Below, one piece after another: positions 3,177-32,367 of a stretch of DNA of 32,809 bases. The translations under genes and the position numbers were made by a program. The stretch lies in assembly GCA_003133065.1 (NCBI GenBank), contig PKZM01000148.1:7892-40700 (forward strand), written 5' to 3'. Under the pieces are notes generated by a model. It had not been told where the DNA came from, did not search any database, and was given only the letters and a program-made list of their open reading frames with translations. The stretch is from Acetobacteraceae bacterium. GTDB lineage: Bacteria > Pseudomonadota > Alphaproteobacteria > Acetobacterales > Acetobacteraceae. Numbering within the stretch: position 1 is the stretch's first letter; each line of letters starts with the position of its first letter.

Positions 3177-4450
3177 TGCATGATATCCGCGCCATCCGCG
3201 CAGACCCTGCCGCTTTCGAGGCGGCGATGGCCCGGCGCGGCCTTTATGATGTAGCCGCCCCCCTGCTCGACCTGGATGCGAGCCGCCGTGCTGCCCTGAC
3301 CGTGGAGCAGGATTGGCAGGCCCGCAGTAACGCCACCGCCCGCGAATTTGGCCAGCGCAAGCGGGAGGGGGCTGAAACCGAAACGCTTCTGGCCGCCATC
3401 GAAAAGCTGAAGCGCGAGAAATCCGCCATCGAGCGGGTCGCCGCCGAGGCGGAGCAGGCGCTGCAGGAAGCGCTGGCAAAGCTGCCCAACGTGCTGGATG
3501 CGGACGTACCGGATGGCGCGGACGAAAAATCCAACATGGAGATGAAGCAATGGGGCATGCGGCCCAGCTTCGATTTTCCGGCGCGCCAGCATTTTGAACT
3601 TGGCGAGGCGCTGGGGCTGATGGATTTCGAGCGTGCGGCCAAGATCGCCGGCAGCCGCTTCACCGTGCTGCGCGGCCCGCTCGCGCGGCTGGAGCGTGCG
3701 CTCGGTCAGTTCATGCTGGACCTGCACACCGGCGAGCACGGGTATGAGGAGACGGTGGTGCCGTCGCTGGTAAACGATGCTGCCGCCTACGGCACCGGCC
3801 AACTGCCCAAATTCGCCGAGGATCTGTTTCATACCACCGATGGGCGGTGGCTGATCCCGACTGCCGAGCTGCCGCTCACCAACCTCGTTGCCGGCGAGAT
3901 TCTCCCAGAGAAATCCTTCCCCATTCGCCGCACGGCGCTGACGGACTGTTTCCGCAGCGAGGCGGGTGCGGCGGGGCGTGATACGCGCGGCATGTTGCGC
4001 CAGCACCAGTTCCGCAAGGTGGAGCTGGTGACCATTGCCCATCCCGATCGTAGCCTGGTCGAGCATGAAGCCATGACGCGCTGTGCCGAACGCGTGCTGG
4101 AGCTGTTGGAGCTGCCGTATCGCCGCATGCTGCTGTGTACAGGGGATACCGGGTTCGGTGCGGCCCGCACCTATGATCTGGAGGTATGGCTGCCGGGGCA
4201 GGGGGCTTGGCGGGAGATCAGCTCCTGTTCCAACACCCGCGCCTTTCAGGCCCGGCGGATGAACGCCCGCTTCCGCAGCGAGGATGGCAAGACCATCGCG
4301 CATGTGCACACGCTGAACGGCTCGGGTGTTGCCGTTGGCCGCGCGCTGATTGCGGTGATGGAAAACTACCAGACCAGGGATGGCGCTATCCGCATCCCCC
4401 CCGCCTTGCGCCCCTACCTGGCCGGCCAGGACCTGATCCAGAAGGCGTAG
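3176..4450 (+). CDS. serS: Serine--tRNA ligase
   Basis: [23 protein letters not shown]...[27 protein letters not shown]...[26 protein letters not shown] overlap with the tatC stop; the listed ORF from 2975 is over-extended. Confidence 0.97.
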
Positions 4451-4467
4451 CGGCGCCGGCATCGCGC

Positions 4468-4585
4468 CCAAACAGATCAAAGTTTTTTGCTTCTTTTTTT
4501 CAAAAAAGAAGTGTCTTTCTTTATTTCCGCTGCGCGGGGCCTTCTTTCTTGAAAGAAAGAAGCAAAGAACTTTTATCTGTTTGGG
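4468..4585. repeat. Intergenic palindromic repeat, locus 2 (inward pair: hairpins 4490-4511 and 4541-4562)
   Basis: CCCAAACAGATCAAAGTTTTTTG-CTTCTTTTTTTCAAAAAAGAAG ... CTTCTTTCTTGAAAGAAAGAAG-CAAAGAACTTTTATCTGTTTGGG; outer arms are also inverted repeats. Confidence 0.95.
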
Positions 4586-8389: not shown

Positions 8390-8420
8390 CGCGGCGGTGA
8401 AAGGAAAGGCAAAAGAAAGT

Positions 8421-8545
8421 GTTCTTTTTTGAAAAAAAGAAACAAAAAACTTTTATCCCTGCGCCGTCCCCCCGATCCGACACGTTGCCGCGGCGCGTGT
8501 CTGAACAGACAAAAGTCTTTTGGTTTCTTTTTTTTAAAAAAGAAC
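8421..8545. repeat. Intergenic palindromic repeat, locus 4 (outward pair, partly degenerate)
   Basis: GTTCTTTTTTGAAAAAAAGAAA-CAAAAAACTTTT ... AAAAGTCTTTTG-GTTTCTTTTTTTTAAAAAAGAAC; centre contains GACACG...CGTGTC. Confidence 0.92.
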
Positions 8546-8554
8546 ATTTCTTTC

Positions 8555-10549
8555 TTATTCCCGATATTTCGCTGTCGCATCCGCCAGCGCATCCCTCAAC
8601 GGCTCCAGCCAGGCCTCGAACCTCTTCCATTGTTCCAGCCCATCGCGAAAAATGGGCTGCCGTACCTGCTCGGAGCTCGGGGTGCGCACGCTGCGTGTGT
8701 TCTTGTGAAAATCGACGCATGCCGGCTCGAACGATAGCCCGCAATACGCCAGCATCCGCCTCACGCTTCCCTCAAGATCGTGCACCACATCCTCATGCTG
8801 CACGCGCAGCACCCGCCCGGGCAGCACCGCATCCCAATGCCGCATCAGGTCGAGATAGGTTCTATAATAGCGCGCGATATCCGCGATGCTGTAGGTAAAT
8901 TCCTGCCCCTGCGCGAAAAGCTGTTTGAGGTTGGAAAAGCAGCAGGACATGGGATCGCGCCGCGCATCGATGATGCGCGCGCGCGGGAGCATGAGGTGGA
9001 TCAGGCCGATATGCCGGAAATTATTCGGCATCTTGTCGATAAAGAACGGCTTGCCGGTCCGGTACACCCGTGTATCCGCCATATAGCGCTCACCGAGCCG
9101 CCGAAAATCCTCCGCATTCATGTCCCGCAGCGCGCCCGGATAGCGTGGATTGTCCAAATCCGGATCGCGTCCGGCAATCTCGATCACGATCCTTTGGATG
9201 TCGGATAATTCCTGTGTTCCCTCCACCTGCGAATGCGAGGCGAGTATCTGCTCCAGCAGGGTGGAACCGGCGCGTGGCAGGCCCAGGATGAAGATGGGGT
9301 CGGGGCTGTCGTCGCCCCATCCGGCACGCTGTGCGAAGAATCCGGTGGTGCATATCTCGATCTGCCGTGCGGTGTTGGTTTCAATGATCTCCGGCCGGTA
9401 GCGGCTTTCGGCACGCTTTAAGGCGTTGCCGCGTTCGTAATTCCGCCAGGCCTCATCAGCCTCGCCGCGATCCTCGAATGCCTTGCCCAGGGCGAAACAC
9501 AGGTGAATGCGATCCGTGGCGCCTGTGGTGGACGCGGCTTCCTGGGCGCGCATGCGGGCGATCTCGTCGTCGGAGAAGCGGTAGAGCTTCAGGTTGGCCA
9601 AACTCCAGTAGGCGTCGCCGAAATCGGGCCGGGCCGCAATTGCCGCATGATAGGCCTCGATCGCCTCGGCCACCTGACCTACCGTTTTCAACGCATGTGC
9701 AATCCACAGCCGGAATTCCGGATCGTTTGGCCGGTCCGCGATCATGGCGCGGTACAGCGCGATCGCCGCGTCGTGGTCCCCGAGACCGACAAGGGCGGTT
9801 GCGGCCAAGGAGCGGTAATCCGAATTGTCGGGATCCACCTTCAGCAAAAGCCGGGCCTGCTCCAGCGCCTGGCTATGTTTGTGCCGCTGGATCAGCGTAT
9901 GCGTATAGTCGTGCCGTGCCGCGTGGTACTCCGGCTGCAGCACCAGCACCGCCGCGAGCAGGGTTTCGGAGTCATCCAGCGCATCATTGGCGACCGCGAT
10001 CTTCGCCAGCACGCGCATCGCCTCGGGGTGGTTGCCGTGGCGCAGCAGGAAGGCGCGGATGATCTGTTCGGCAGCCGCCGTCTCCCCATCCGAGAACAGT
10101 GAAATCCCCCTCACCACCTCGGCGGGCAGGCTCTTCAGGGTGGCCACCTGCCGGCCGGCCTCCGCCGCCGCCGCGCCGTCGCCTATCAGGCGATACAGGC
10201 CCGCCAGCATGTTCCAACTGGCCATCAAGGCTGGGTTGATCTGCACAGCCCGCACCAACGAGGCGATGGCAAGGGGCGCGTCCTTTCGTACCACATGGCA
10301 CAGGCCGCGCTCCTGATGCAGCCGGCTGAACCCCGGCTTGCACGCCTCCAGCCGGTCCAGCGTCGCCATGGCCGCATCGATCCGCATCAGATGGCGCTGG
10401 GCGATGGCCGCGATCAGCAGCAGATCGCGATTTTCCGGCCAGGTCCGCAGGAGCTCCAGCGCCTTTGGCAATGCCTCGGCGTGCCGGCCTTCCTGCTGCA
10501 GGCTGCGCAGGCGCAGAACGTCGTGTTCCAGGGGGGATTGGGTGAGCAT
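8555..10549 (-). CDS. TPR-repeat sulfotransferase family protein
   Basis: 664 aa; N-terminal TPR units; PAPS-binding-like FILGLPRAGSTLLEQILASHSQVEGTQEL; IIDARRDPMSCCFSNLKQLF. Confidence 0.9.
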   Translation of the reverse strand: MLTQSPLEHDVLRLRSLQQEGRHAEALPKALELLRTWPENRDLLLIAAIAQRHLMRIDAAMATLDRLEACKPGFSRLHQERGLCHVVRKDAPLAIASLVRAVQINPALMASWNMLAGLYRLIGDGAAAAEAGRQVATLKSLPAEVVRGISLFSDGETAAAEQIIRAFLLRHGNHPEAMRVLAKIAVANDALDDSETLLAAVLVLQPEYHAARHDYTHTLIQRHKHSQALEQARLLLKVDPDNSDYRSLAATALVGLGDHDAAIALYRAMIADRPNDPEFRLWIAHALKTVGQVAEAIEAYHAAIAARPDFGDAYWSLANLKLYRFSDDEIARMRAQEAASTTGATDRIHLCFALGKAFEDRGEADEAWRNYERGNALKRAESRYRPEIIETNTARQIEICTTGFFAQRAGWGDDSPDPIFILGLPRAGSTLLEQILASHSQVEGTQELSDIQRIVIEIAGRDPDLDNPRYPGALRDMNAEDFRRLGERYMADTRVYRTGKPFFIDKMPNNFRHIGLIHLMLPRARIIDARRDPMSCCFSNLKQLFAQGQEFTYSIADIARYYRTYLDLMRHWDAVLPGRVLRVQHEDVVHDLEGSVRRMLAYCGLSFEPACVDFHKNTRSVRTPSSEQVRQPIFRDGLEQWKRFEAWLEPLRDALADATAKYRE

Positions 10550-10567
10550 AAGGGAAGGAAGAAAGCA

Positions 10568-10698
10568 CTTCTTTTTTGAAAAAAAGAAGCAAAAAACGTT
10601 TATCTGTTTGTCCCCATCACCATCGGCGCAAACGCATCACGCGCCGTGGTGGGAGCGAGCAGGTAAAAGTTTTTTGGTTCTTTTTTTCAAAAAAGAAC
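10568..10698. repeat. Intergenic palindromic repeat, locus 5 (outward pair: 10568-10589, 10677-10698)
   Basis: CTTCTTTTTTGAAAAAAAGAAG-CAAAAAACG ... AAAAGTTTTTTG-GTTCTTTTTTTCAAAAAAGAAC; centre hairpin CACCATCGGCGC/GCGCCGTGGTG. Confidence 0.95.
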
Positions 10699-10711
10699 AG
10701 TCTTCCTGTCT

Positions 10712-13399: not shown

Positions 13400-14040
13400 A
13401 AAACCATCCCCCCGATACCGCCGCAAACGACACGACGGACCCAGCCAAATGACGGCCCTTCCGAAACCCAAATCTGGGCTTGGATCGCGCGCGACAGGCA
13501 AGCCACATTTATGTCTACGGACGAAATAGCAACGAGCAGAGGATAGCGGCCAGCCCCCACCTGCGCAATCGTAGCGTCTTCTCAACGGTTTCCTAATGAT
13601 TACAATGGGCTCGGCTCATAGAGGCATTGGACGACGTGTGGGTCTTTCCGTGTCCGCTTCCAGCCAAATTCGGAAACGTTTCACATTTTCAAAGCAAACA
13701 ATCGTAGCGGCCTGACCAGATATCGGCTGCGGAAGGTTTCACAGGTGCCTCAAACCCCGGCGCATTGTCATGATCTCTTAACGGTTGCGATGGTGCAGTA
13801 ATGCAACAGTCCATCGACGCTTGTGCTGGCCTGACCACTGTAAGTGCTGCCGCCGGCCAGCAAGCCCGGAGAATATTACAGTCTCAAGACGGTATGATGA
13901 CGGCACGGTGACGGTCCAGCGCCACGGTCGCATCACCGCCGTCGCCGGGCCGGCCGCATTGCCACGCTCTGCGCCGGCGTCTATTTTTATGACCGCAGTG
14001 CCGCGCACCGTGCGGAGGTCGCGCTGACGTAAGGAAGGGT

Positions 14041-14153
14041 GTTCTTTTTTGAAAAAAAGAACCAAAAAACTTTTACGCCTTCAGGGATGCGGTCCCCCGC
14101 CGCCCCGGGCCAAAAAGTCAAAAGTTTTTTGCGTCTTTTTTTCAAAAAAGAAG
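14041..14153. repeat. Intergenic palindromic repeat, locus 6 (outward pair: 14041-14062, 14132-14153)
   Basis: GTTCTTTTTTGAAAAAAAGAAC-CAAAAAACTTTT ... AAAAGTTTTTTG-CGTCTTTTTTTCAAAAAAGAAG. Confidence 0.95.
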
Positions 14154-14184
14154 ACTCGTTCTTCCTCTCGACTGGACACCCCCC

Positions 14185-16020: not shown

Positions 16021-16650
16021 ATGCGAGACAAGATCACCCAAGCGGCGCTTGCCGGCCTGTTGCTGTGCGTGAGCGGCTGCGGATCGGACACGATCGACGT
16101 CACCAGGGTAAGCCGCCTCTCCACCGGGGTGGGCAATGAGCGGTTCACCATCCTGCTGACCGAGCAGGAACAAAACGACACGCAATACCGGCGCTACGCG
16201 GTGGCGCTGTCCAAACAGATACAGGCCCATGGTTTCGTGCCGGTTGAAGATCCCCGCGACGCCCGCTACGCGGTGGTTCTGAACCTGGTTGAGCCGCAAT
16301 TGCCCGAGGATTTCGTGCCCCCCGCCGCCGGCGCCAGCGACAGCACCACGGCCGGCCTATCGGCGCCCGATCATGCGCAACACGCTGCCGACCCCGCCAC
16401 CGCCCCCGGGATCAGGCATACCGCCTCGGATTCGGGCGAGGGCCACGTGCTGATCGCCATGTACGATCTGACCAAGCCGCAGCAGCCCGACGAGAAAGTG
16501 CTCGGCGTGGATGTGACCGCGCCCGTCAAATCGGGGCATGAGCCGGCTTTTCTGCCGATGATCGCAGCGGCGTTCAAGGATTTTCCGGGCCAGGCGAAGG
16601 AGACGTATAGCGTGCCGTTGCCGGAGACAAAGGGCAAGAAAGGGAAGTAA
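16021..16650 (+). CDS. Putative lipoprotein, DUF4136-like
   Basis: MRDKITQAALAGLLLCVSGCGSDTIDVTRVSRL...; lipobox VSGC; DARYAVVLNL; family assignment tentative. Confidence 0.65.
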   Translation: MRDKITQAALAGLLLCVSGCGSDTIDVTRVSRLSTGVGNERFTILLTEQEQNDTQYRRYAVALSKQIQAHGFVPVEDPRDARYAVVLNLVEPQLPEDFVPPAAGASDSTTAGLSAPDHAQHAADPATAPGIRHTASDSGEGHVLIAMYDLTKPQQPDEKVLGVDVTAPVKSGHEPAFLPMIAAAFKDFPGQAKETYSVPLPETKGKKGK

Positions 16651-16657
16651 GGAAGGT

Positions 16658-16767
16658 CTTCTTTTTTGAAAAAAAGAAGCAAAAAACTTTTTGACTTTCG
16701 GTACGCGTCTCCCCGGCAGCGTACCCCATGGGTAAAAGTTTTTTGCTTCTTTTTTTCAAAAAAGAAC
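16658..16767. repeat. Intergenic palindromic repeat, locus 7 (outward pair: 16658-16679, 16746-16767)
   Basis: CTTCTTTTTTGAAAAAAAGAAG-CAAAAAACTTTT ... AAAAGTTTTTTG-CTTCTTTTTTTCAAAAAAGAAC; inner GGTACGC (16700-16706)/GCGTACC (16719-16725). Confidence 0.95.
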
Positions 16768-16794
16768 ACTTCCTTCCTTCAATCAGGCGAAAAC

Positions 16795-18462: not shown

Positions 18463-18484
18463 GCCAGAAAGCAAGAAAGAGATT

Positions 18485-18520
18485 CTTCTTTCTTGAAAGA
18501 AGGAAGCAAAGAACTTTTAT
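18485..18520. repeat. Intergenic palindromic repeat, locus 8 (single)
   Basis: CTTCTTTCTTGAAAGAAGGAAG-CAAAGAACTTTTATC between convergent genes. Confidence 0.9.
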
Positions 18521-18897
18521 CGGATTGGGGGGAAACAAAAGCCATCTGTGCCGGTCCGCATCGCGGCCGTGATGGCACGGCCGAGCGCGATCTCGGTAAA
18601 CGGCTTTAGAAGCAGCGGCGCATGACGCAATCCCTCCACGTGGCTTCCGCTCATGAACACGTGTGGTATCTTCCCGCTGCGTTCGATCTCGGCCATCGCA
18701 TCCACGCCGCTATCGCATCCCAGCCGCGCGTCAACCAGCATCCAATCCGGCTTCAGCTTCAAGGCGGCGTCCACCGCCTCACGATGCGTCCGCGCAATGC
18801 CGCAGACCCGGAAACCCATGTTTTCGAGCAGTTCGCCCAGCAGGGTTGCAATCATCGGATCGTCTTCCGCCACCAGAACATCAACCATGTCGGGCAC
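18517..18897 (-). CDS. Single-domain response regulator receiver
   Basis: MVDVLVAEDDPMIATLLGELLENMGFRVCGIART..WMLVDARLGCDSGVDAMAEI..PHVFMSGSHVEG..LLLKPFTE. Confidence 0.88.
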   Translation of the reverse strand: MPDMVDVLVAEDDPMIATLLGELLENMGFRVCGIARTHREAVDAALKLKPDWMLVDARLGCDSGVDAMAEIERSGKIPHVFMSGSHVEGLRHAPLLLKPFTEIALGRAITAAMRTGTDGFCFPPIR

Positions 18898-19169
18898 GCC
18901 TTGGCGACGCAGGCAGAGTTACGCACAGCAATCGTTCAGGTCTCATGACGGTGCGCGCCTGTAATTCCCGACACATATTGTCAACCCGCAATCTGCGCAT
19001 CTTCCGGTGCGATCGGGTAGATTCGGAATCTACTCATGATGCCGGCGTGCAGCTTCGGGTCGGGTAAATCACCGCACGGCGACACGTGGCATTGGCGTCG
19101 GCTCCGCGAACGTGCTAATCTGATCACGGCCCTCGCCGCGACGGCCGATCATTTCGGTAGGTTAGTGCC

Positions 19170-22100
19170 ATGCCGAAGCAAAATCAGGCCATTCCAGTGG
19201 CTTCATCAGCAGTGGCGCGTTCCGGTGCGCAACCGGCCCGCGAGCCGCACGATACTGCCGATGCGATTGCCGTCGTGGGCGTCGGTGCGTCCGCCGGCGG
19301 GCTGGAGGCGTGCACTACCCTGTTCGGCAGCGTACCCCCGGGCACTGGCATGGCGTTTATCCTGGTGCAGCACCTCGATCCAACGCATGACAGCATGCTC
19401 GTGGATCTGATCTCCGCCCGCTGCGTGTTGCGCGTGGTGCAAGCCGCCGATGGCATGGCTCTGCTGCCCGACCATCTCTACATTATTCCGCCCGCGTCGC
19501 ATTTGTCCGTCACCCCCGGCAGGCTGCACGTCACGCGCCTGCCTGCGCGCCAAGGTGCCAGATTGCCCTTTGATTTTCTGCTGGCCTCCCTGGCGGAAGC
19601 CTATGGCAGCCGCGCCATCTGCGTGGTGATGTCGGGCACCGGCGGCGATGGCACGCTGGGCCTGCACGCCATCAAGGCGCAAGGCGGCCTGGTGGTGGCG
19701 CAGTTGCCGCAGGATGCGACGTATGGCGGCATGCCGCTCAGCGCCCTGGCAACGGGCGAGGTGGATCTTGTGCTCCCCGCACGTCAGATCGCTGCCGCGC
19801 TCGTGGAGCACGCCCACGTGCTTGAACATGAGCCGCAGACGGGCCACCCCGCCGATATGCCGGCGCCTGCCGATCATCTGGCGGAAATCATCGGGCTTTT
19901 GCGCGACCGAACCCCGCATGATTTCACGCTCTACAAGCCGGGCACACTGCAGCGCCGCGTGGAACGGCGCATGGCCATGGCCGAAATTTCCCCCGATCGG
20001 ATGGATCAATATCTGCAGGTGCTGCGGCGAGATGCCGCGGAAACCGACCTGCTGGCACAGGACCTGCTGATCAACGTGACCGGCTTCTTCCGCGACGCGG
20101 GTGTCTTTGAGGTGATCGGCGACAGGATCATCCCCGATTTGATCCGAACGCGAAAGCTGGATCGCCCTTTGCGCATCTGGATTGCCGGCTGCAGCACCGG
20201 CGAGGAAAGCTATTCCCTGGCGATCCTGTTCCACGAGCACCTCGCGGCCGCATCGCGTGAGATCAAGCTGCAGATGTTCGCCTCCGACATCGATGCGGAA
20301 GCCGTGGCCACGGCGCGCGAGGGGTTCTTCCCCGATGCCGCGCTCGCCGGCGTCTCACAGTCGCGCCTCGCGCGTTTCTTCATCCGCGAGGAGAACGGCT
20401 ATCGCGTGTCCCAGGATCTGCGGGCAAGCGTGGTATTTACCGTGCACGATGTTCTGAATGATCCACCGTTTTCCCGCCTGGATCTGGTATCCTGCCGCAA
20501 TCTGCTGATCTATCTTCAGCCCGAGGCACAGGCCAAGGTGATCGCCGCCTTCCATTTCGCCCTGCGCGAGGATGGCATCTTGGTTCTCGGCAGCGCGGAA
20601 ACCGTGGGCAGTGGCGCGAACCACTTCGAAGTCATATCGAAGTCACAACGGATATATCGCCATATCGGCCGAAGCAGGCCGGGCGAGCATGATTTTCTCT
20701 CCTCGGGGGGTGACTGGTCGCGGCCGCGAACCGCGCTCGGCCAACCGGCCGGCCCGCCAAGGCAGGCCGACCTGGCGGAGATAAGCCGCAGGCTGGTACT
20801 GGAATGTTTTGCACCGGCCGCCGTGCTGATCAACCAGAAGCATCACTGCCTGTTCTCCATCGGCCCCACGGACCGTTATCTGCGCATCTCCCCAGGCCAT
20901 GCGAGCCTGGATCTACTGGCCATGGCACGCACCGGTTTGCGCACCAAACTGAGCCTGGCAATCCAGAAGGCCAACGCGGAAAAATCGCGCATCCGCGTCG
21001 GCGGCCTGCGCGTGGTGGAAGACAAGACCGGCGAGGTGGTCGATCTGGATATCCAGCCCGTCAGCAGCGGCGGCGAGACCTTTCTGCTGATCTGCTTCGT
21101 GCCAGCACCGCGTATCGCCGCCGCCGCGCGCCCCGGTCAGGCGCGTGCTGCCACTGCGCCGCGCATCGCCGAGCTGGAGCAGGAACTGGAGGCGGTGGCG
21201 ACCGAGCTGAAGGGCGCGATCCGTGATCTGGATGCCTCCACAGAGCAGCAGAAGGCGTTCAACGAGGAAGCCCTTTCGGTCAACGAGGAGTATCAATCCA
21301 CCAACGAGGAACTGCTCACCTCGAAGGAGGAGCTGCAGTCCCTCAACGAGGAACTCACCGCCCTGAACGCCCAGTTGCAGGAAACACTGGAACGCCAGCG
21401 CAGAACGGCAACCGACCTGCAAAACGTTCTCAACAGCACCGATATCGCCACCCTCTTCCTGGATAGCGAGTTGCGGATCCGCTTCTTCACACCCGCCACC
21501 GCATCGATCTTCAGTGTCATTGCCAGTGACATCGGCCGGCCGCTGGCCGATTTGCACGCGCTGGTGCCCGATGACCGTTTTGTCGAAGATGCCCAGCTTG
21601 TGCTCCGCAGCGGTGGTCCCATCGACCGCGAACTCGTGGCACCTGCGCTGAGAGACGGGGGCGCCAGCTGGTTCATCCGCCGCATCCTGCCCTACCGCAC
21701 CGACAAGAGCGGTGTGGAAGGTGTCGTCATCACCTTCACCGATATCACGGACCGCAAACAGGCGGCGCGGGTGCTGCAGTCCGCCCAGGAAAGTTCGGAT
21801 ATGGCAAACGCGGCGAAATCCCGCTTCCTGGCCGCGGCCAGCCACGATCTGCGCCAGCCCCTGCAAACGCTGACGCTGCTGCAAGCCTTGATGGCTAAGA
21901 ATGCCGGCAGCGGGCCGCAGCAAAAACTGGTGGTACGCCTCGGTGAAACGGTTGAAGCGATGTCCGGCATGCTCAATACGCTGCTGGACATCAATCAGAT
22001 CGATGCCGGCGTCATCCGTCCGGAATTCTCCACATTCTGCCTCAATCACCTGTTCGATCGGCTGCGTGACGAACTCACTGTGCAGGCGGAAGCGGAGCAT

Positions 22101-23576
22101 CTGCGCTTTCGTGTGGTGCCGTGCAGCCTGTTCATCCGCAGCGACAAGCGCCTGCTGGCGCAAATGATTCGCAACCTGATTTCCAACGCTTTCAAATACA
22201 CCACTGATGGCAAGGTGCTGGTCGGCTGCCGGCGGCGGAGCGGAAAACTGATCATCGAGGTGCACGATACCGGAATCGGCATTTCCGCCACGGATATCAA
22301 CGCGATCTTTGAGGAATACCGCCAGTTGCACAATGCGGCGCGCGAGCGCAGCCTGGGCCTCGGCCTGGGCCTGCCGATCGTACGGCGCCTGGGGGATCTG
22401 CTCGGCCATGCCGTCACGGTTCGCTCCTATCCCGGCCGCGGATCGGTGTTCGGGATCGAAATCGCCTGCGCGCCCGATTCCTCTGTCATCCCGATGCCCA
22501 CCCCCCCGGAGCCGCCCGCGCAAGCGCCCCAGGGCACCGCGGAACGCGCCGCCACCATACTGGTGGTGGAAGATGATCCCGCCATCGCCGAGCTGCTGGA
22601 CATGTTCCTGCGCAGCCAGGGCCATCGCGTGACAACCGAGAAGGACGGCCCCGGTGCTCTAGCCCATATCGGCCGCGCCGCCCTCCAGCCGGATCTGATT
22701 CTCACCGACTACAATCTGCCGAACCGCATCAACGGGCTGGAACTCGCTTTGGCGATCCGGCGTATGCTGCGCCGGGAAGTGCCGGTCATCATCCTCACCG
22801 GCGATGTCTCCACGCAAACCCTGCGTAGCGTGGCCGGCCAGAATTGCCTGCATCTCGGCAAACCGGTCGAGCTTGCGGCGCTCTCGTCTGCCATTCAGGA
22901 CATGATCCCGCCCGTGCCATGGTTGCCTGCCATCCAGGACCGCCGCGCCGGCGCTGCCGCGGATACCAGCGTGCCGGTCTTCATCGTCGATGATGATGCC
23001 GGCGTGCGCGAAGCGCTGTGCTCCGCGATCCGGGATGCCGGCCGTATTGCCCGCGCCTTTCCCGATGCGGAAACCTTCCTGCAAGCCTATCAGCACGGCC
23101 AGGCTGGCTGCCTGGTGCTGGATGCGACACTGCCCGGCATGGATGGCCTGGGCCTGCTGCGCCATTTGCGCGAGGCCGGCGACACGCTGGCCTGCGTAAT
23201 GATCACCGGCAACAGCGATGTGCCGATGGCGGTGCAGGCGATGAAGGCTGGCGCCACCGACTTTATCGAAAAACCGGTCGGCTATGCGGAGCTTCTCAGC
23301 TCGATCGAAGCAGCCATCGACCTGACGCGCGATTCCACCAAGCGCGCCGCCTGGCGGGAGGTTGCCGCCGGCCACATCGCGGATCTCACCCCGCGCCAGC
23401 GCCAGATCCTGAACATGGTTCTCGCCGGGCACCCCAGCAAGAACATCGCCGCCGATCTCGGCATCAGCCAGCGGACCGTGGAGAACCACCGCGCCTCCAT
23501 CATGAAGCGCACCGGATCCCATTCCCTCCCCGCCCTCGCGCGCCTCGCCGTCACGGCGCAGTTGAACCAGGAGTAA
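19170..23576 (+). CDS. CheB-CheR-coiled coil-PAS-HisKA-HATPase-REC-REC-LuxR HTH fusion protein
   Basis: 1468 aa. CheB VGVGASAGGLEA/VQHLDP/GTGGDGTLG; CheR NVTGFFRD..WIAGCSTGEESYSLA..CRNLLIYL; PAS LFLDSELRIRFFTPA; H-box AAASHDLRQPLQTL; REC1 ILVVEDDP..LTDYNLP; REC2 VFIVDDDAGVREAL..VLDATLPGMDGL; HTH LTPRQRQILNMVLAGHPSKNIAADLGISQRTVENHRASIMKRTG. Confidence 0.93.
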   Translation: MPKQNQAIPVASSAVARSGAQPAREPHDTADAIAVVGVGASAGGLEACTTLFGSVPPGTGMAFILVQHLDPTHDSMLVDLISARCVLRVVQAADGMALLPDHLYIIPPASHLSVTPGRLHVTRLPARQGARLPFDFLLASLAEAYGSRAICVVMSGTGGDGTLGLHAIKAQGGLVVAQLPQDATYGGMPLSALATGEVDLVLPARQIAAALVEHAHVLEHEPQTGHPADMPAPADHLAEIIGLLRDRTPHDFTLYKPGTLQRRVERRMAMAEISPDRMDQYLQVLRRDAAETDLLAQDLLINVTGFFRDAGVFEVIGDRIIPDLIRTRKLDRPLRIWIAGCSTGEESYSLAILFHEHLAAASREIKLQMFASDIDAEAVATAREGFFPDAALAGVSQSRLARFFIREENGYRVSQDLRASVVFTVHDVLNDPPFSRLDLVSCRNLLIYLQPEAQAKVIAAFHFALREDGILVLGSAETVGSGANHFEVISKSQRIYRHIGRSRPGEHDFLSSGGDWSRPRTALGQPAGPPRQADLAEISRRLVLECFAPAAVLINQKHHCLFSIGPTDRYLRISPGHASLDLLAMARTGLRTKLSLAIQKANAEKSRIRVGGLRVVEDKTGEVVDLDIQPVSSGGETFLLICFVPAPRIAAAARPGQARAATAPRIAELEQELEAVATELKGAIRDLDASTEQQKAFNEEALSVNEEYQSTNEELLTSKEELQSLNEELTALNAQLQETLERQRRTATDLQNVLNSTDIATLFLDSELRIRFFTPATASIFSVIASDIGRPLADLHALVPDDRFVEDAQLVLRSGGPIDRELVAPALRDGGASWFIRRILPYRTDKSGVEGVVITFTDITDRKQAARVLQSAQESSDMANAAKSRFLAAASHDLRQPLQTLTLLQALMAKNAGSGPQQKLVVRLGETVEAMSGMLNTLLDINQIDAGVIRPEFSTFCLNHLFDRLRDELTVQAEAEHLRFRVVPCSLFIRSDKRLLAQMIRNLISNAFKYTTDGKVLVGCRRRSGKLIIEVHDTGIGISATDINAIFEEYRQLHNAARERSLGLGLGLPIVRRLGDLLGHAVTVRSYPGRGSVFGIEIACAPDSSVIPMPTPPEPPAQAPQGTAERAATILVVEDDPAIAELLDMFLRSQGHRVTTEKDGPGALAHIGRAALQPDLILTDYNLPNRINGLELALAIRRMLRREVPVIILTGDVSTQTLRSVAGQNCLHLGKPVELAALSSAIQDMIPPVPWLPAIQDRRAGAAADTSVPVFIVDDDAGVREALCSAIRDAGRIARAFPDAETFLQAYQHGQAGCLVLDATLPGMDGLGLLRHLREAGDTLACVMITGNSDVPMAVQAMKAGATDFIEKPVGYAELLSSIEAAIDLTRDSTKRAAWREVAAGHIADLTPRQRQILNMVLAGHPSKNIAADLGISQRTVENHRASIMKRTGSHSLPALARLAVTAQLNQE

Positions 23577-23606
23577 TCACCGCGCCGCCGCACCCACCCC
23601 AAAAGT

Positions 23607-23724
23607 GCAAAAGTTCTTTGCTTCTTTCTTTCAAGAAAGAAGACTCTTTCTTCCTGATCCGCGTAGATCGGCAAAAAGAAAGAGTCTTCTTTTTCTGAAG
23701 AAAAAGAAGCAAAAAGACTTTTAT
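23607..23724. repeat. Intergenic palindromic repeat, locus 9 (inward pair: 23621-23642, 23686-23709)
   Basis: CTTCTTTCTTTCAAGAAAGAAGACTCTTTCTT ... AAAGAAAGAGTCTTCTTTTTCTGAAGAAAAAGAAGCAAAAAGACTTTTA. Confidence 0.94.
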
Positions 23725-24716: not shown

Positions 24717-24752
24717 CGCTGTCGGTCAAGGATGCAACAGACAAGGAAGACT

Positions 24753-24787
24753 CTTCTTTTTTGAAAAAAAGAAGCAAAAAACTTTTA
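24753..24787. repeat. Intergenic palindromic repeat, locus 10 (single)
   Basis: CTTCTTTTTTGAAAAAAAGAAG-CAAAAAACTTTTA between convergent genes. Confidence 0.94.
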
Positions 24788-24819
24788 TCCGGCTGTCGCG
24801 GACTCATCGGAAACACCCG

Positions 24820-27784: not shown

Positions 27785-27899
27785 CTGTACATCTCCCGGC
27801 CCGTTGTCATATCTTGGCCGGAAGAAGTGCTATAATCAAGTTACCACGATGGTACGGGAATTCCTGTGCGCACGCCGCTCGCCTGGTCCGCGACAGACA

Positions 27900-27936
27900 G
27901 TCAAAAGTCTTTTGCTTCTTTTCTTCAGAAAAGAAG
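27900..27936. repeat. Intergenic palindromic repeat, locus 11 (single)
   Basis: TCAAAAGTCTTTTG-CTTCTTTTCTTCAGAAAAGAAG. Confidence 0.93.
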
Positions 27937-27954
27937 GCCTTCCTATCCTTGTAT

Positions 27955-29142
27955 TCAGATGACCGGCAGCTGCGTCATCTCCAAATGCAGCTCATCCCCC
28001 TCATACGGATGCGCCCGCGCCACCGCCTCGTTCAACTCCACCCCAAGCCCCGGCGTATCCGGCGGGATCACATACCCATCCTCCCAGCGGATCGGCGTCA
28101 CCAAAATTTCCGCATGGAACCCGCCCCATCTCTCGATCCCCTCCAGGATCAGGAAATTCGGGCTGCACGCCGCCAACTGAATATTCGCCGCCCCCACCAC
28201 CGGCCCGCAATACAGATGCGGCGCAATCTGCACATGATGCACCTCCGCCATCCCGGCGATCTTCTTGCCCTCCAGCAACCCGCCCACGCGACCCAAATTC
28301 ATCTGCAAAATTGCCGCGGCCCCCGCCGCCAGAACACGCGCGAAATCATACTTCGTCGCCAGCCGCTCCCCCGCCGCCACGGGGATCGATGTCGCACGCG
28401 CCACCTTGCCCATCTCCTCCGGCGCATCGGGCGGCACCGGCTCTTCCAGCCACAGCGGATCGTAGGGCTCCAGCCGCCGCGCCAGCCGTATGGCCGAAGC
28501 GGCCGTCATCTGCCCGTGCGTGCCGAACAGCAGATCAGCCTTGTCCCCCACCGCTTCCCGCAGGCGCCGCGCGAATCTCTCGCTCAGCGCCAGCGACGCC
28601 AGCGACAATTGCCGCCCATCAAACGCCGAATACGGCCCCACCGGATCGAATTTTACCGCCGTGAACCCTTGGGCCACATAATCGGCGGCATATTCCGCCG
28701 CCAGCTCCGGATCCTGATACACATCCGTCCGGTCGCCCGGCCGCGGATAGATATACGTGTAGCTCCGCAAACGCTCATGCACCCGCCCGCCCAGCAGACG
28801 ATGCACGGGCTGACCCGCCGCCTTGCCCACAATGTCCCAGCACGCCATCTCCAGCGCGCTCAACACCCCCATCAGCGTCAAATCCGGGTGCTGCGTGAAG
28901 CCGGAGGAGTACACACGCCGCCACAACGCCTCGATATCGTGCGGATCGCGCCCGCGCGCGTAACGATCGAACACGTCTTCGATCATCCTGGCAACCAGAT
29001 GCGGCGAGAACGGCACGCAATAGGCCTCGCCGAGGCCGCTTATGCCGTCATCTGTGAGAAGCTTGACGAATACGAAGTAACGGCCGCCGAAATGGGGCGG
29101 GGGGTTGCCGACGACGAAGGTCTCAGCGCCCCGAAGTATCAA
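27955..29142 (-). CDS. Mandelate racemase/muconate lactonizing enzyme family (enolase superfamily), sugar-acid dehydratase-like
   Basis: VKLLTDDGISGLGEAY...AVKFDPVGPY...LWLEEPVPPDAPEEMGKVARATSIPVAAGERLATKYDF... Confidence 0.92.
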   Translation of the reverse strand: MILRGAETFVVGNPPPHFGGRYFVFVKLLTDDGISGLGEAYCVPFSPHLVARMIEDVFDRYARGRDPHDIEALWRRVYSSGFTQHPDLTLMGVLSALEMACWDIVGKAAGQPVHRLLGGRVHERLRSYTYIYPRPGDRTDVYQDPELAAEYAADYVAQGFTAVKFDPVGPYSAFDGRQLSLASLALSERFARRLREAVGDKADLLFGTHGQMTAASAIRLARRLEPYDPLWLEEPVPPDAPEEMGKVARATSIPVAAGERLATKYDFARVLAAGAAAILQMNLGRVGGLLEGKKIAGMAEVHHVQIAPHLYCGPVVGAANIQLAACSPNFLILEGIERWGGFHAEILVTPIRWEDGYVIPPDTPGLGVELNEAVARAHPYEGDELHLEMTQLPVI

Positions 29143-29152
29143 GAAGAAAAAT

Positions 29153-29265
29153 CTTCTTTTTTGAAAAAAAGAAGCAAAAAACTTTTACCTATTGCACCCG
29201 ACACCGTGGGCCAACGCGCACCTGAATGAGTAAAAGTTTTTTGGTTCTTTTTTTCAAAAAAGAAC
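29153..29265. repeat. Intergenic palindromic repeat, locus 12 (outward pair: 29153-29174, 29244-29265)
   Basis: CTTCTTTTTTGAAAAAAAGAAG-CAAAAAACTTTT ... AAAAGTTTTTTG-GTTCTTTTTTTCAAAAAAGAAC. Confidence 0.95.
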
Positions 29266-29271
29266 ACTTGC

Positions 29272-30597
29272 TTACACATACCCGATAGCCGCCTTCTGAT
29301 CCGCAATCACCGTCTTGCACGCCGCCCAATAATGCCACGCCGCCCAAAACCCCGTCGGCGCCAGGATCAGCAGCGCCAGCCGCAACGATGCCGCATCAGG
29401 CCCCGCCGGCCCCGCCGTCATGTCACTGATCAGCGCCACGCCTTGCGGCGCCACGATCAGATTGAAAACATTCGGCACGAACAGGGAAACGGCAATGAAC
29501 GTCGCGCGCATCTTCGTCGGCGCCAGGTTCTGCACCAGCGCCATCGTCGGCCCGATATAGAAATAGATCGCCGGGATGAAGATCCAGAACATCACCCGCG
29601 CCAGCAGCAGAGAATGGGTCTGGTAGGCGATGAAGGAAGGTATCGTCGCCAGACCCACCCCGCCGCCCAGCAGCCACAGCACCCGCCGCGGATCAACAAA
29701 CTTGCGCTTGGCTAGCACCCACGCCGTGGCAACCGATGCCAGCGAGCCGCCGATCAGATGGATCGGCCCCACCACCGCGCCGGCCTCACCGACGCTGAGA
29801 TGATACGTCCGCTGCAGAAACGTCGGCGTGAACCACATCAATCCCCAGCCCCACAGCGCCGCCACGCCGCCGGCCATCACCACATGCACGGCCGCCTTGT
29901 GCTGCCAAAGAAACGTCATGGATTGTGCAAAACTGGGCTTCCCCGGGGCCTGCGCCGCATCCAGCCGCCCACGCAGCGGCTCGCGTATCGTCATAAGCAC
30001 CACCAGCCCCAGGATCAGCCCAGGAATACCCAGGCCCAGGAACGCGGCGCGCCAGCCATACGCATTGGCCACCCACCCCGCCATATCCGCGCCCATATAC
30101 GCGCCCAGCGGCGCCCCCAGGGCAAAGATCGCCATTGCCATCGGCCGCCGCCCGGCCGGAAAATAATCCGCGATGATGGAATTCGCCGGCGGCGTTCCAC
30201 CGGCCTCGCCCACGCCCACGCCCACGCGCGCCAACAGGAACTGGCCGTAATTGCGCGACAATCCGCATAACGCGCTCATCCCGGACCACGCAATCAGCGC
30301 AGCGGAAAGAATATTCCGCCTATTGGCATTGTCCGCGAGCCAAGCGATGGGGATGCCGAGCGTCACATAGAACAGCGCCAAGGGCGGCCCGGTCAGAAAC
30401 GCCACGCCGCTGTCGCTCAGGTGCAGATCGAGCCGCATCGGCTCCATCACCGTGGTCACCACATACCGGTCCGCGATATTGATCGCGTAGCCCAGGCACA
30501 TGATGAACAGCACGTACCATCGCAAGGTTATCGACGATGTTTGGGTCTGGATAAGACTATCCGCGCTGATATCCGTTACGTCCTGTCCCCAACCCAT
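29272..30597 (-). CDS. MFS transporter
   Basis: 441 aa, 12-TM pattern; LGIPIAWLADNANRRNILSAALIAWSGMSALCGLSRNYGQFLLARVGVGVGEAGGTPPANSIIADYFP. Confidence 0.92.
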   Translation of the reverse strand: MGWGQDVTDISADSLIQTQTSSITLRWYVLFIMCLGYAINIADRYVVTTVMEPMRLDLHLSDSGVAFLTGPPLALFYVTLGIPIAWLADNANRRNILSAALIAWSGMSALCGLSRNYGQFLLARVGVGVGEAGGTPPANSIIADYFPAGRRPMAMAIFALGAPLGAYMGADMAGWVANAYGWRAAFLGLGIPGLILGLVVLMTIREPLRGRLDAAQAPGKPSFAQSMTFLWQHKAAVHVVMAGGVAALWGWGLMWFTPTFLQRTYHLSVGEAGAVVGPIHLIGGSLASVATAWVLAKRKFVDPRRVLWLLGGGVGLATIPSFIAYQTHSLLLARVMFWIFIPAIYFYIGPTMALVQNLAPTKMRATFIAVSLFVPNVFNLIVAPQGVALISDMTAGPAGPDAASLRLALLILAPTGFWAAWHYWAACKTVIADQKAAIGYV

Positions 30598-30689
30598 ATT
30601 GCCTCATTCTCGCCCCGACCCCCACCACTACCGCACGCCGCTCTGCCAACCGTCAAGCCGCGCGCCGGGCCGGCAGCGCCCCCCAACAA

Positions 30690-30725
30690 ACAAAAGTTTT
30701 TTGGTTCTTTTTTTCAAAAAAGAAC
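30690..30725. repeat. Intergenic palindromic repeat, locus 13 (single)
   Basis: CAAAAGTTTTTTG-GTTCTTTTTTTCAAAAAAGAAC. Confidence 0.94.
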
Positions 30726-30774
30726 ACTTCCCTTCCCCGCCACTCCGCGGGAAGCCTGTCCTTCGTGGGCGACC

Positions 30775-31944
30775 TTATCCGCTTGCCCGGCCCGGCCCGG
30801 CCCGGCCAACCTGGTCCCGGCCGCCTTTCTTGGCCAAATACAGCGCCTGGTCAGCGGCCTGCAGCAGGGATTGTGCCGCCGCATTTTCCTTGGCAACCGC
30901 AATCCCCGCGCTGATGGTCACCACCCCGCCCTCGCGCCCGGCTTGGGGCAAGGCGAGGCGGTGCACGGCCAGGCGCAGCTTTTCGGCGATCTGCAAGGCG
31001 GCCGGCTCGCCGGTATCGGGCAGGACCACCGCGAATTCCTCGCCGCCATAGCGCATCACCTGGTCGTCACGGCGAACGAGTCCGGCGCGCAGGGCCTCGG
31101 CGATGGCGCGCAGGCATGTGTCGCCCGCCACATGACCGTGGCGATCGTTGTACATCTTGAAGAAATCGACATCGATCATGATCAGGGCGACGCAGCTGCC
31201 CGCCCGCCTGGCCCGCCGCAGCGCCTCGTCCAGATACTCGTCCAGCCGCCTACGGTTGCCCAGGCCGGTCAGGGCATCGATCAGGGCTGCCTGGCGATAC
31301 CGCAGTTCGGCCGGTTCGCGCACCAGCGCGATGATGCCGAAACTGAGCAGCATCGTTGCGGCCACCGTCAGCACCATCAGGTAGCTGAAGCCCGGGCTGG
31401 CAGTGAGCGCGGCCGAGGCGGGGTAGTGCGACCAGAGCGGCAGATTGAGCACCGCCCAGCCGAATTGGGAGGCCCATTGCAGCAGCAGCAATCCCGAGAC
31501 CCAAAGATTGGCAAAGCGGCTGCCACCCTGGGTGCGCCGCAACTCCAGGAACGACAGCCCGAGCAGGCTGGAGGACAGCATATTGAAGGCGATCAGGCGG
31601 ACATGGATATCGCCGCTGAAGCCGGGCAGCCGCGTTTCGGCCAGCCAGAGTCCCGCGCAGACCGGCATGGTCCACAGCCAGGCCTGCCGCCCGGCAATCA
31701 CACGGCATGCCATCCACTGCGCGGCTAGGCCCGCCATGATGACGGCATTGCCGATGAGCACCGCCTGGGCCTGTGGCAGGCTGAGGCGCAGCGCGTAGCC
31801 CAGGGCCGGCAGTGCCGTACCCCCAACCATCCAGAGCAGCGCGGCCTGGCTGCGATCCTGCACCCAGAACAGCAGATAGCCCGCGCTGATGAGGAACAGC
31901 ACGAGGGGCAACAATACCAGCGAGGTCCATGCGTCTAAATGCAC
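30775..31944 (-). CDS. Membrane-anchored diguanylate cyclase (GGDEF)
   Basis: Multi-TM N-terminus; DALTGLGNRRRLDEYLDEAL...MIDVDFFKMYNDRHGHVAGDTCL...VMRYGGEEFAVVLPDTGE. GTG at 31944 (VHLDAWTSLVLLPLVLFL) preferred over the listed 32178 start. Confidence 0.9.
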   Translation of the reverse strand: MHLDAWTSLVLLPLVLFLISAGYLLFWVQDRSQAALLWMVGGTALPALGYALRLSLPQAQAVLIGNAVIMAGLAAQWMACRVIAGRQAWLWTMPVCAGLWLAETRLPGFSGDIHVRLIAFNMLSSSLLGLSFLELRRTQGGSRFANLWVSGLLLLQWASQFGWAVLNLPLWSHYPASAALTASPGFSYLMVLTVAATMLLSFGIIALVREPAELRYRQAALIDALTGLGNRRRLDEYLDEALRRARRAGSCVALIMIDVDFFKMYNDRHGHVAGDTCLRAIAEALRAGLVRRDDQVMRYGGEEFAVVLPDTGEPAALQIAEKLRLAVHRLALPQAGREGGVVTISAGIAVAKENAAAQSLLQAADQALYLAKKGGRDQVGRAGPGRASG

Positions 31945-32030
31945 ACGCGGGTATCCGCATATATACGGGCGCCTGTCCAGGCGCTTCGATCGCGGGGGGC
32001 ACGCCGTTCCGGCAGGCTGCAACGCCGCCG

Positions 32031-32135
32031 GAACTGATCTACGGGTGGCGACCCCATCTTCGTGATGAAGGCGATAATCATCTTGTGGAACTGGCGATCG
32101 CCGGGGGCGCCGAGGCGATCGTGACGCCATCGTAG
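32031..32135 (+). pseudogene. Remnant of PIN-family (COG1569-like) toxin
   Basis: PELIYGWRPHLRDEGDNHLVELAIAGGAEAIVTPS*; matches the remembered C-terminal signature W-R-P-N-L-R-D-E-x-D-N-H-x-x-E-L-A; N-terminal part absent. Confidence 0.6.
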
Positions 32136-32367
32136 GACAGGCGGTTGCTGAGGGGCGTGGAGTAGGTTGGCGGGCCACGACCGACGATGATGAGCACTAT
32201 GTCTACGCCATAGCACTCTGATGGCCGGATAAGGGCCTGTCGTCCGTCGCTTCAGGGTCCGACGTTGCTTATAGTTGGGTCATCTTACTACGATCAGCCA
32301 TTGACACTTGGCCACGTGGCCTGGTGGGGGCCGCTCGTTCGGCAAGCGGGATTCGGGCAGGAATGGG

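Follow-up and report, generated by a model that had tools for sequence, protein, structure and literature searches.

Among described systems, FixL/FixJ is the closest in output to the regulator encoded at 19170–23576 on the forward strand of a 32,809-nucleotide stretch of DNA from an Acetobacteraceae bacterium (GenBank assembly GCA_003133065.1, contig PKZM01000148.1, positions 7,892 to 40,700), the whole of which is referred to here as the window. This protein, termed the hybrid below, joins CheB and CheR domains to PAS domains, a histidine kinase, two receivers (REC1 and REC2) and a helix–turn–helix (HTH). We consider it probable that the hybrid is a soluble, one-polypeptide equivalent of FixL plus FixJ, which would activate a stress and energy-limitation regulon while its CheB–CheR module sets the gain. 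All of the evidence is computational, each functional step having been inferred through sequence comparison.

Like FixL/FixJ, the hybrid has a PAS-kinase input, several predicted targets of low-oxygen type and a REC2–HTH output whose best solved-structure match is FixJ (PDB 5xso, E 6.9e-39), which places it among FixJ-type DNA-binding outputs in the broad sense; its score against the FixJ equivalog NF006900 of NCBIfam is 213.6 bits, below the cut-off of 255. Unlike FixL/FixJ, it is a single polypeptide with an extra receiver and a CheB–CheR module, and its predicted regulon consists of stress genes and not fixK. The kinase–REC1 part finds its best NCBIfam match in the NahK/ErcS hybrid kinases (NF041832, 335.7 bits), yet falls below the 400-bit cut-off and differs in its input and in having the output fused in cis. 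The N-terminal half resembles the CheB–CheR–coiled coil–PAS fusions annotated as ‘chemotaxis protein CheB’ (about 40% identity over residues 20–870), with which the hybrid has a Glu–Glu coil in common, whereas these fusions lack REC2–HTH and the output of the hybrid is predicted to be DNA binding.

The 1468-aa protein is a single ATG-initiated open reading frame (ORF) spanning exactly 19170–23576 in the ORF listing of the window, with the following layout:

19170–23576, forward strand: hybrid regulator, CheB–CheR–PAS–coiled coil–PAS–HisKA–HATPase–REC–REC–HTH (1468 aa; ORF, Pfam, alignment)
19275–19802, forward strand: CheB methylesterase domain (Pfam CheB, residues 36–211, E 6.5e-52), with the conserved Ser in GASAGG, His in VQHLD and Asp in GDG (homologue alignment)
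19875–20033, forward strand: CheR_N alpha domain (Pfam, residues 236–288)
20073–20645, forward strand: CheR S-adenosylmethionine-binding domain (Pfam, residues 302–492, E 7e-53), with GCSTGEE and CRNxxIY kept across the alignment
20754–21104, forward strand: PAS1, the first PAS-like domain (residues ~529–645; AlphaFold2 model, Foldseek)
21162–21437, forward strand: coiled-coil helix of about 92 residues linking PAS1 and PAS2 (AlphaFold2 model)
21264–21353, forward strand: five heptad-spaced Glu–Glu pairs (699/700, 706/707, 713/714, 720/721, 727/728), candidate cis methylation sites
21417–21749, forward strand: PAS2, PAS_10 (Pfam, residues 750–860, E 7.7e-25)
21813–22010, forward strand: HisKA dimerisation domain with H-box His 892 (Pfam, residues 882–947; alignment)
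22143–22463, forward strand: HATPase_c catalytic domain (Pfam, residues 992–1098; N, G1 and G2 boxes kept in the alignment)
22551–22889, forward strand: REC1, phospho-acceptor Asp 1180 (Pfam Response_reg; alignment)
22977–23306, forward strand: REC2, FixJ-like, phospho-acceptor Asp 1318 (Pfam Response_reg; structure match; alignment)
23385–23549, forward strand: GerE/LuxR HTH with FixJ-like recognition helix SQRTVENHRASIM (Pfam GerE, residues 1406–1460, E 1.2e-15)

Every domain named in an earlier sequence-only reading of this DNA (CheB, CheR, PAS, kinase, two receivers and HTH, all on one polypeptide) was confirmed by Pfam, which finds Response_reg twice (2.5e-42); the inventory of that reading was incomplete in that it missed the PAS-like domain at residues ~529–645. 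This extra domain lies ahead of the coiled coil in an AlphaFold2 model of residues 515–868 (39-sequence input, mean pLDDT 85.7), and its Foldseek matches are tandem PAS sensors including DosP and FixL. Because the model adds a second PAS, the order reads CheB–CheR–PAS1–coiled coil–PAS2–HisKA–HATPase–REC1–REC2–HTH. With HisKA, HATPase and receiver domains and intact phospho-acceptors, the protein classes as a hybrid histidine kinase (Pfam, alignment). An alignment of 41 distinct full-length homologues, on which all conservation figures rest, identifies the HTH as the best-conserved domain (mean identity 80%), the others averaging 56% (CheB), 62% (CheR), 60% (PAS2), 48% (REC1) and 52% (REC2). 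The key residues of CheB, CheR, H-box, N/G-box, REC1 and REC2 are nearly invariant, and the catalytic residues expected of the chemotaxis adaptation enzymes CheB and CheR are kept in about 95% or more of the sequences.

To find the DNA target of the output, words were counted near the start of each of 58 distinct homologues, in a 510-bp region made up of about 450 bp of upstream sequence and the first 60 bp. AGTA-N3-TCCG occurs in 28 of the 58 regions against 0.2 expected, nearly always in one orientation, and a degenerate motif in 33 against 0.3 expected, with 33 of 35 occurrences sharing their orientation; comparison of the upstream regions gave the de novo consensus TGAGTA(G/T)(T/A)TTCCGAnnCT. 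Among 136 distinct sites selected by TGAGTANNTTCCGA alone, on which the consensus was built, the unselected positions carry C at −1 (57%), G/T at 6, T/A at 7 and CT at 16–17 (88% and 96%). A −10-like hexamer, TANNNT, stands at 39–41 in 77 of these sites (control mean 1.9, maximum 7), and this spacing would put the site at about −52 to −35, the position of an activator overlapping the −35 element. An EcfG-type promoter was considered as the origin of the motif and rejected, because the motif strand has a sigma70-like −10 at fixed spacing; EcfG promoters have the form GGAAC-N16/17-CGTT. The comparative motif contains the core GTAGTTTCC, which matches the FixJ SELEX consensus GTAGTTTCCC, and the predicted site also resembles the fixK site TAAGTAATTTCCCTTA (PMC4999443), consistent with a FixJ-like target sequence. 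In the window the site falls between the hybrid and its divergent neighbour, a small receiver whose upstream intergenic region is common to both genes, and is oriented towards the receiver:

19019–19036, reverse strand: predicted binding site of FixJ type, TGAGTAGATTCCGAATCT, lying 126 bp ahead of the receiver start
18517–18897, reverse strand: divergent single-domain receiver, 126 aa (PF00072, E 7.8e-12), predicted first target and partner of the hybrid

Genome-wide pattern scans, with the reversed pattern as control, found 20, 22, 12 and 7 exact sites in four genomes (controls 0, 0, 0 and 1), and 16 sites at one mismatch or fewer in the genome of the window (control 1). Across 442 sampled genomes, from which two with partial hybrids were set aside, an exact site is present in 20 of the 30 that encode the full hybrid versus 19 of the 410 without it (Fisher P 7e-17), many of these 19 having single sites, at background level. 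The sites are mostly intergenic and oriented to a start codon that follows after tens to a few hundred bp. Pfam analysis of 68 predicted target proteins returned PRC-barrel (six), BON (five), phosphoketolase, LTXXQ and YflT (three each), and Dps-type ferritin, CsbD, DUF3309, EAL and OmpA (two each). Genes preceded by a site in the genome of the window include the receiver, two EAL-domain genes, those for a triple-BON protein, an aldehyde dehydrogenase and a thioredoxin, a NuoE/NuoF-type gene and a stand-alone CheB methylesterase gene (G000:C5:41895, locus L294), the last of which the hybrid may control, given its near-perfect upstream site. On this content, the predicted regulon looks like a set of energy-limitation and stress-survival genes. 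Together, the conserved site and the regulon lend strong indirect support to promoter binding by the HTH, which the sequence-only reading had proposed.

EcfG regulons include Dps, BON, CsbD and PRC-barrel types, and the predicted targets of the hybrid thus overlap in kind with the EcfG/PhyR general stress response, the small partner receiver also resembling PhyR receivers; the predicted target promoters, unlike those of EcfG, have a FixJ-type box and a sigma70-like −10. The Burkholderia low-oxygen-activated (lxa) locus is similar in its BON and universal stress protein genes and differs in that an Anr/FixK-type regulator, and no hybrid kinase, is proposed to govern it (PMC6127331). By analogy with that locus, a low-oxygen trigger of the regulon is plausible.

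Derivatives of the hybrid point to which part belongs with the sites. In genome G012, a 644-aa frame retains only a linker/coil, the HisKA helix pair and REC2–HTH, the latter at 59–65% identity despite the loss of CheB–CheR, and seven sites are present, one of them adjoining the gene. The derivative on contig C81 of this genome (loci L286 and L036), which lacks CheB, CheR, the ATPase domain and REC1 and sits inside an island of predicted sites, is on its domain content incapable of autophosphorylation in cis. Judged by these sequences, output and sites travel together and CheB–CheR is a detachable input.

In the mechanism that we favour, cues would reach the kinase through the two PAS domains joined by the long coiled coil, and the kinase would phosphorylate REC1 and/or REC2, as their intact residues suggest. 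Phosphorylation of REC2 would allow the HTH to bind the consensus at about −52 to −35 (predicted target of the phosphorylated REC2–HTH: TGAGTAGTTTCCGAnnCT) and to activate sigma70-type promoters, the site, position and orientation being taken from comparison. The genes so controlled would serve energy limitation, stationary phase and stress survival, and would include the divergent receiver, which may exert feedback by acting as a phosphate sink, and often Dps. CheR and CheB would most likely set the gain, by methylation and demethylation of the glutamate pairs of their own coiled coil.

Chemoreceptor methylation sites are heptad-spaced Glx pairs on a helix, and the hybrid has a comparable pattern, with five pairs at seven-residue spacing on the predicted coil, 88–100% conserved in the alignment. 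Where CheB and CheR are both encoded, at least three heptad-linked pairs are present in 80 of 84 proteins, and about 11 HTH-bearing relatives without CheB and CheR (none cut by a contig edge) have none or one. Relatives missing one of the two enzymes have no pairs (L106, L032) or two (L102, L324), and the seeming exceptions L130 and L186 retain CheB as an adjacent frame. This pattern of pair loss favours, without proving, the coil as a cis substrate of CheB and CheR. That the hybrid's own CheR and CheB reversibly methylate these pairs, giving a transcription-controlling histidine kinase a built-in, chemoreceptor-style methylation memory, is offered as a tentative proposal, somewhat short of an even chance; if so, the FixJ-type stress regulon would adapt to lasting signals in the manner of chemotaxis receptors.

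Several observations weigh against the regulatory scheme or its methylation component. The −10 that stands at the expected spacing in the window's receiver promoter is weak, and the exact site is missing in ten of the 30 hybrid-bearing genomes, degenerate forms standing upstream of several. A divergent CheB-less relative (L327) keeps five pairs, and in nine relatives without CheB or without CheR the whole coil erodes, the glutamates only somewhat more than the rest: 38 of 90 glutamate positions are kept (42%) versus 156 of 270 other conserved positions (58%; P 0.014, the positions not being independent).

The unusual length of the gene is the sole feature found that would suit an assembly or sequencing artefact merging separate genes, and the mis-join feared near 22920–22980, in the REC1–REC2 linker, is refuted because independent homologues carry the same in-frame junction; with the identical single-ORF layout in dozens of independent assemblies and in closed plasmids, the chance of an artefact is negligible and we regard it as ruled out. 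It is distinctly improbable that the site is owned by some other FixJ- or NarL-type protein, encoded separately, which controls the hybrid locus as well, while the hybrid has a different target. The recognition sequence of FixJ itself is very similar, and genome G006 has two sites with no REC2–HTH homologue detected; against this, identity to the best other REC–HTH proteins of the window's own genome does not exceed about 38% and covers short stretches, a search of that genome for a second close REC2–HTH copy found none, the sites track the REC2–HTH of the hybrid family, including that of G012 without CheB–CheR, and one lies within the hybrid's own divergent promoter.

Two further alternatives concern the CheB–CheR module. 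The enzymes might act in trans on ordinary chemoreceptors, coupling receptor adaptation to gene expression, as the roughly 14 methyl-accepting chemotaxis proteins (MCPs) of the window's own genome, the intact catalytic residues and the stand-alone CheB among the predicted targets would allow. This is unlikely, given that this CheB is the only che gene at the locus or among the classified predicted targets, that the glutamate pairs in the hybrid's coil track the presence of CheB and CheR, and that expression of a Phaeobacter CheB–CheR chimera was unchanged when che gene expression changed (PMC11974857). Vestigial scaffolding, with only PAS–kinase–REC–REC–HTH functional, is rather more doubtful: several relatives without CheB–CheR do retain REC2–HTH, some of them with the motif, yet catalytic residues would hardly be so well kept in domains averaging 56–62% identity.

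The sequence-only reading had also presented the architecture as exceptional, which it is not. Full-length homologues at about 42–59% identity occur in Acetobacteraceae, Rhizobiales, Sphingomonadales, Parvibaculum, Xanthobacter and others, and plasmid copies, annotated as ‘chemotaxis protein CheB’ or ‘CheR family methyltransferase’, in Methylocystis, Acidiphilium, Lichenicola, Phyllobacterium, Sphingomonas and Asticcacaulis and in records filed under two betaproteobacterial genera. Of the order's 397 genomes, 70 contain a strong match to residues 751–1468, CheB–CheR not being present in all of them and REC2–HTH missing in some; sister proteins of about 1260 aa from several genera (L331–L340) have CheB–CheR–PAS–kinase–REC1 without REC2–HTH. 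The architecture is widespread, and no characterised CheB–CheR fusion with a LuxR/FixJ output was found in the literature searched. One 19,604-base contig, assigned in its record to Candidatus Kuenenia, appears to match an alphaproteobacterial genome contig of equal length (L028, L125) and is probably a misfiled bin.

The neighbour that recurs most often is a small receiver, encoded immediately upstream of the hybrid on the other strand in about 17 of 56 loci, a slot occupied by Dps in about seven. The receiver of the window is divergent and a likely partner, as had been claimed, though not ‘convergent-ended’. No Dps gene lies beside it in the window, the nearest ferritin-like genes being on other contigs. 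It does not belong to the FATGUY receivers (SdrG/MrrA), having IPHVFMSG in place of PFxFATG(G/Y), and its family motif is (I/V)PH(V/L)F(V/M)(S/T)G. By description only, a possible relative was considered in CstR of Methylobacterium, a single-domain receiver with a link to stress. Receiver genes are annotated beside plasmid copies of the hybrid, whose neighbours comprise a response regulator with dps, CsbD, DUF3309, DUF3096, DUF1003, universal stress protein and PRC-barrel genes, together with BON, oleate hydratase, slipin, alcohol dehydrogenase and an alternate F1F0 ATPase. No che genes were seen in the plasmid neighbourhoods examined or among the window genes scanned, and the hybrid has neither the N-terminal receiver of CheB (Pfam) nor a che-cluster location. 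The earlier view that methylation-type domains, phosphorelay and promoter binding are combined on one polypeptide away from che genes is in this respect supported by sequence comparison. The plasmid copies L183 (Roseateles sp. XES5) and L185 (Rhizobium sp. Y9) are found in polysaccharide gene clusters that resemble each other, beside a DNA-binding response regulator, a setting that differs from the stress-gene context.

Elsewhere in the window, an AT-rich intergenic repeat, CAAAAGTTTTTTGCTTCTTTTTTTCAAAAAAGAAG, has about 20 copies in either orientation, often as close inverted pairs between genes, and two genes were noted that no evidence here ties to the hybrid:

741–875, 4450–4584, 8406–8554, 10553–10707, 14026–14162, 16643–16776: AT-rich repeat CAAAAGTTTTTTGCTTCTTTTTTTCAAAAAAGAAG
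18470–18528, 23581–23715, 24738–24796, 27875–27945, 29138–29274, 30664–30735: AT-rich repeat CAAAAGTTTTTTGCTTCTTTTTTTCAAAAAAGAAG, continued
8558–10549, reverse strand: TPR-sulfotransferase protein
30778–32178, reverse strand: GGDEF diguanylate cyclase

New for the hybrid family are a predicted DNA site, a target gene set and a highly conserved HTH, and this widespread protein, a ‘chemotaxis enzyme’ in databases, would be better read as an activator of stress-gene transcription whose DNA site and regulon are specific and testable. The function of CheB–CheR–PAS fusions also becomes testable, in particular whether self-methylation adapts a kinase; if true, this would extend methylation-based sensory adaptation beyond chemotaxis into gene control.

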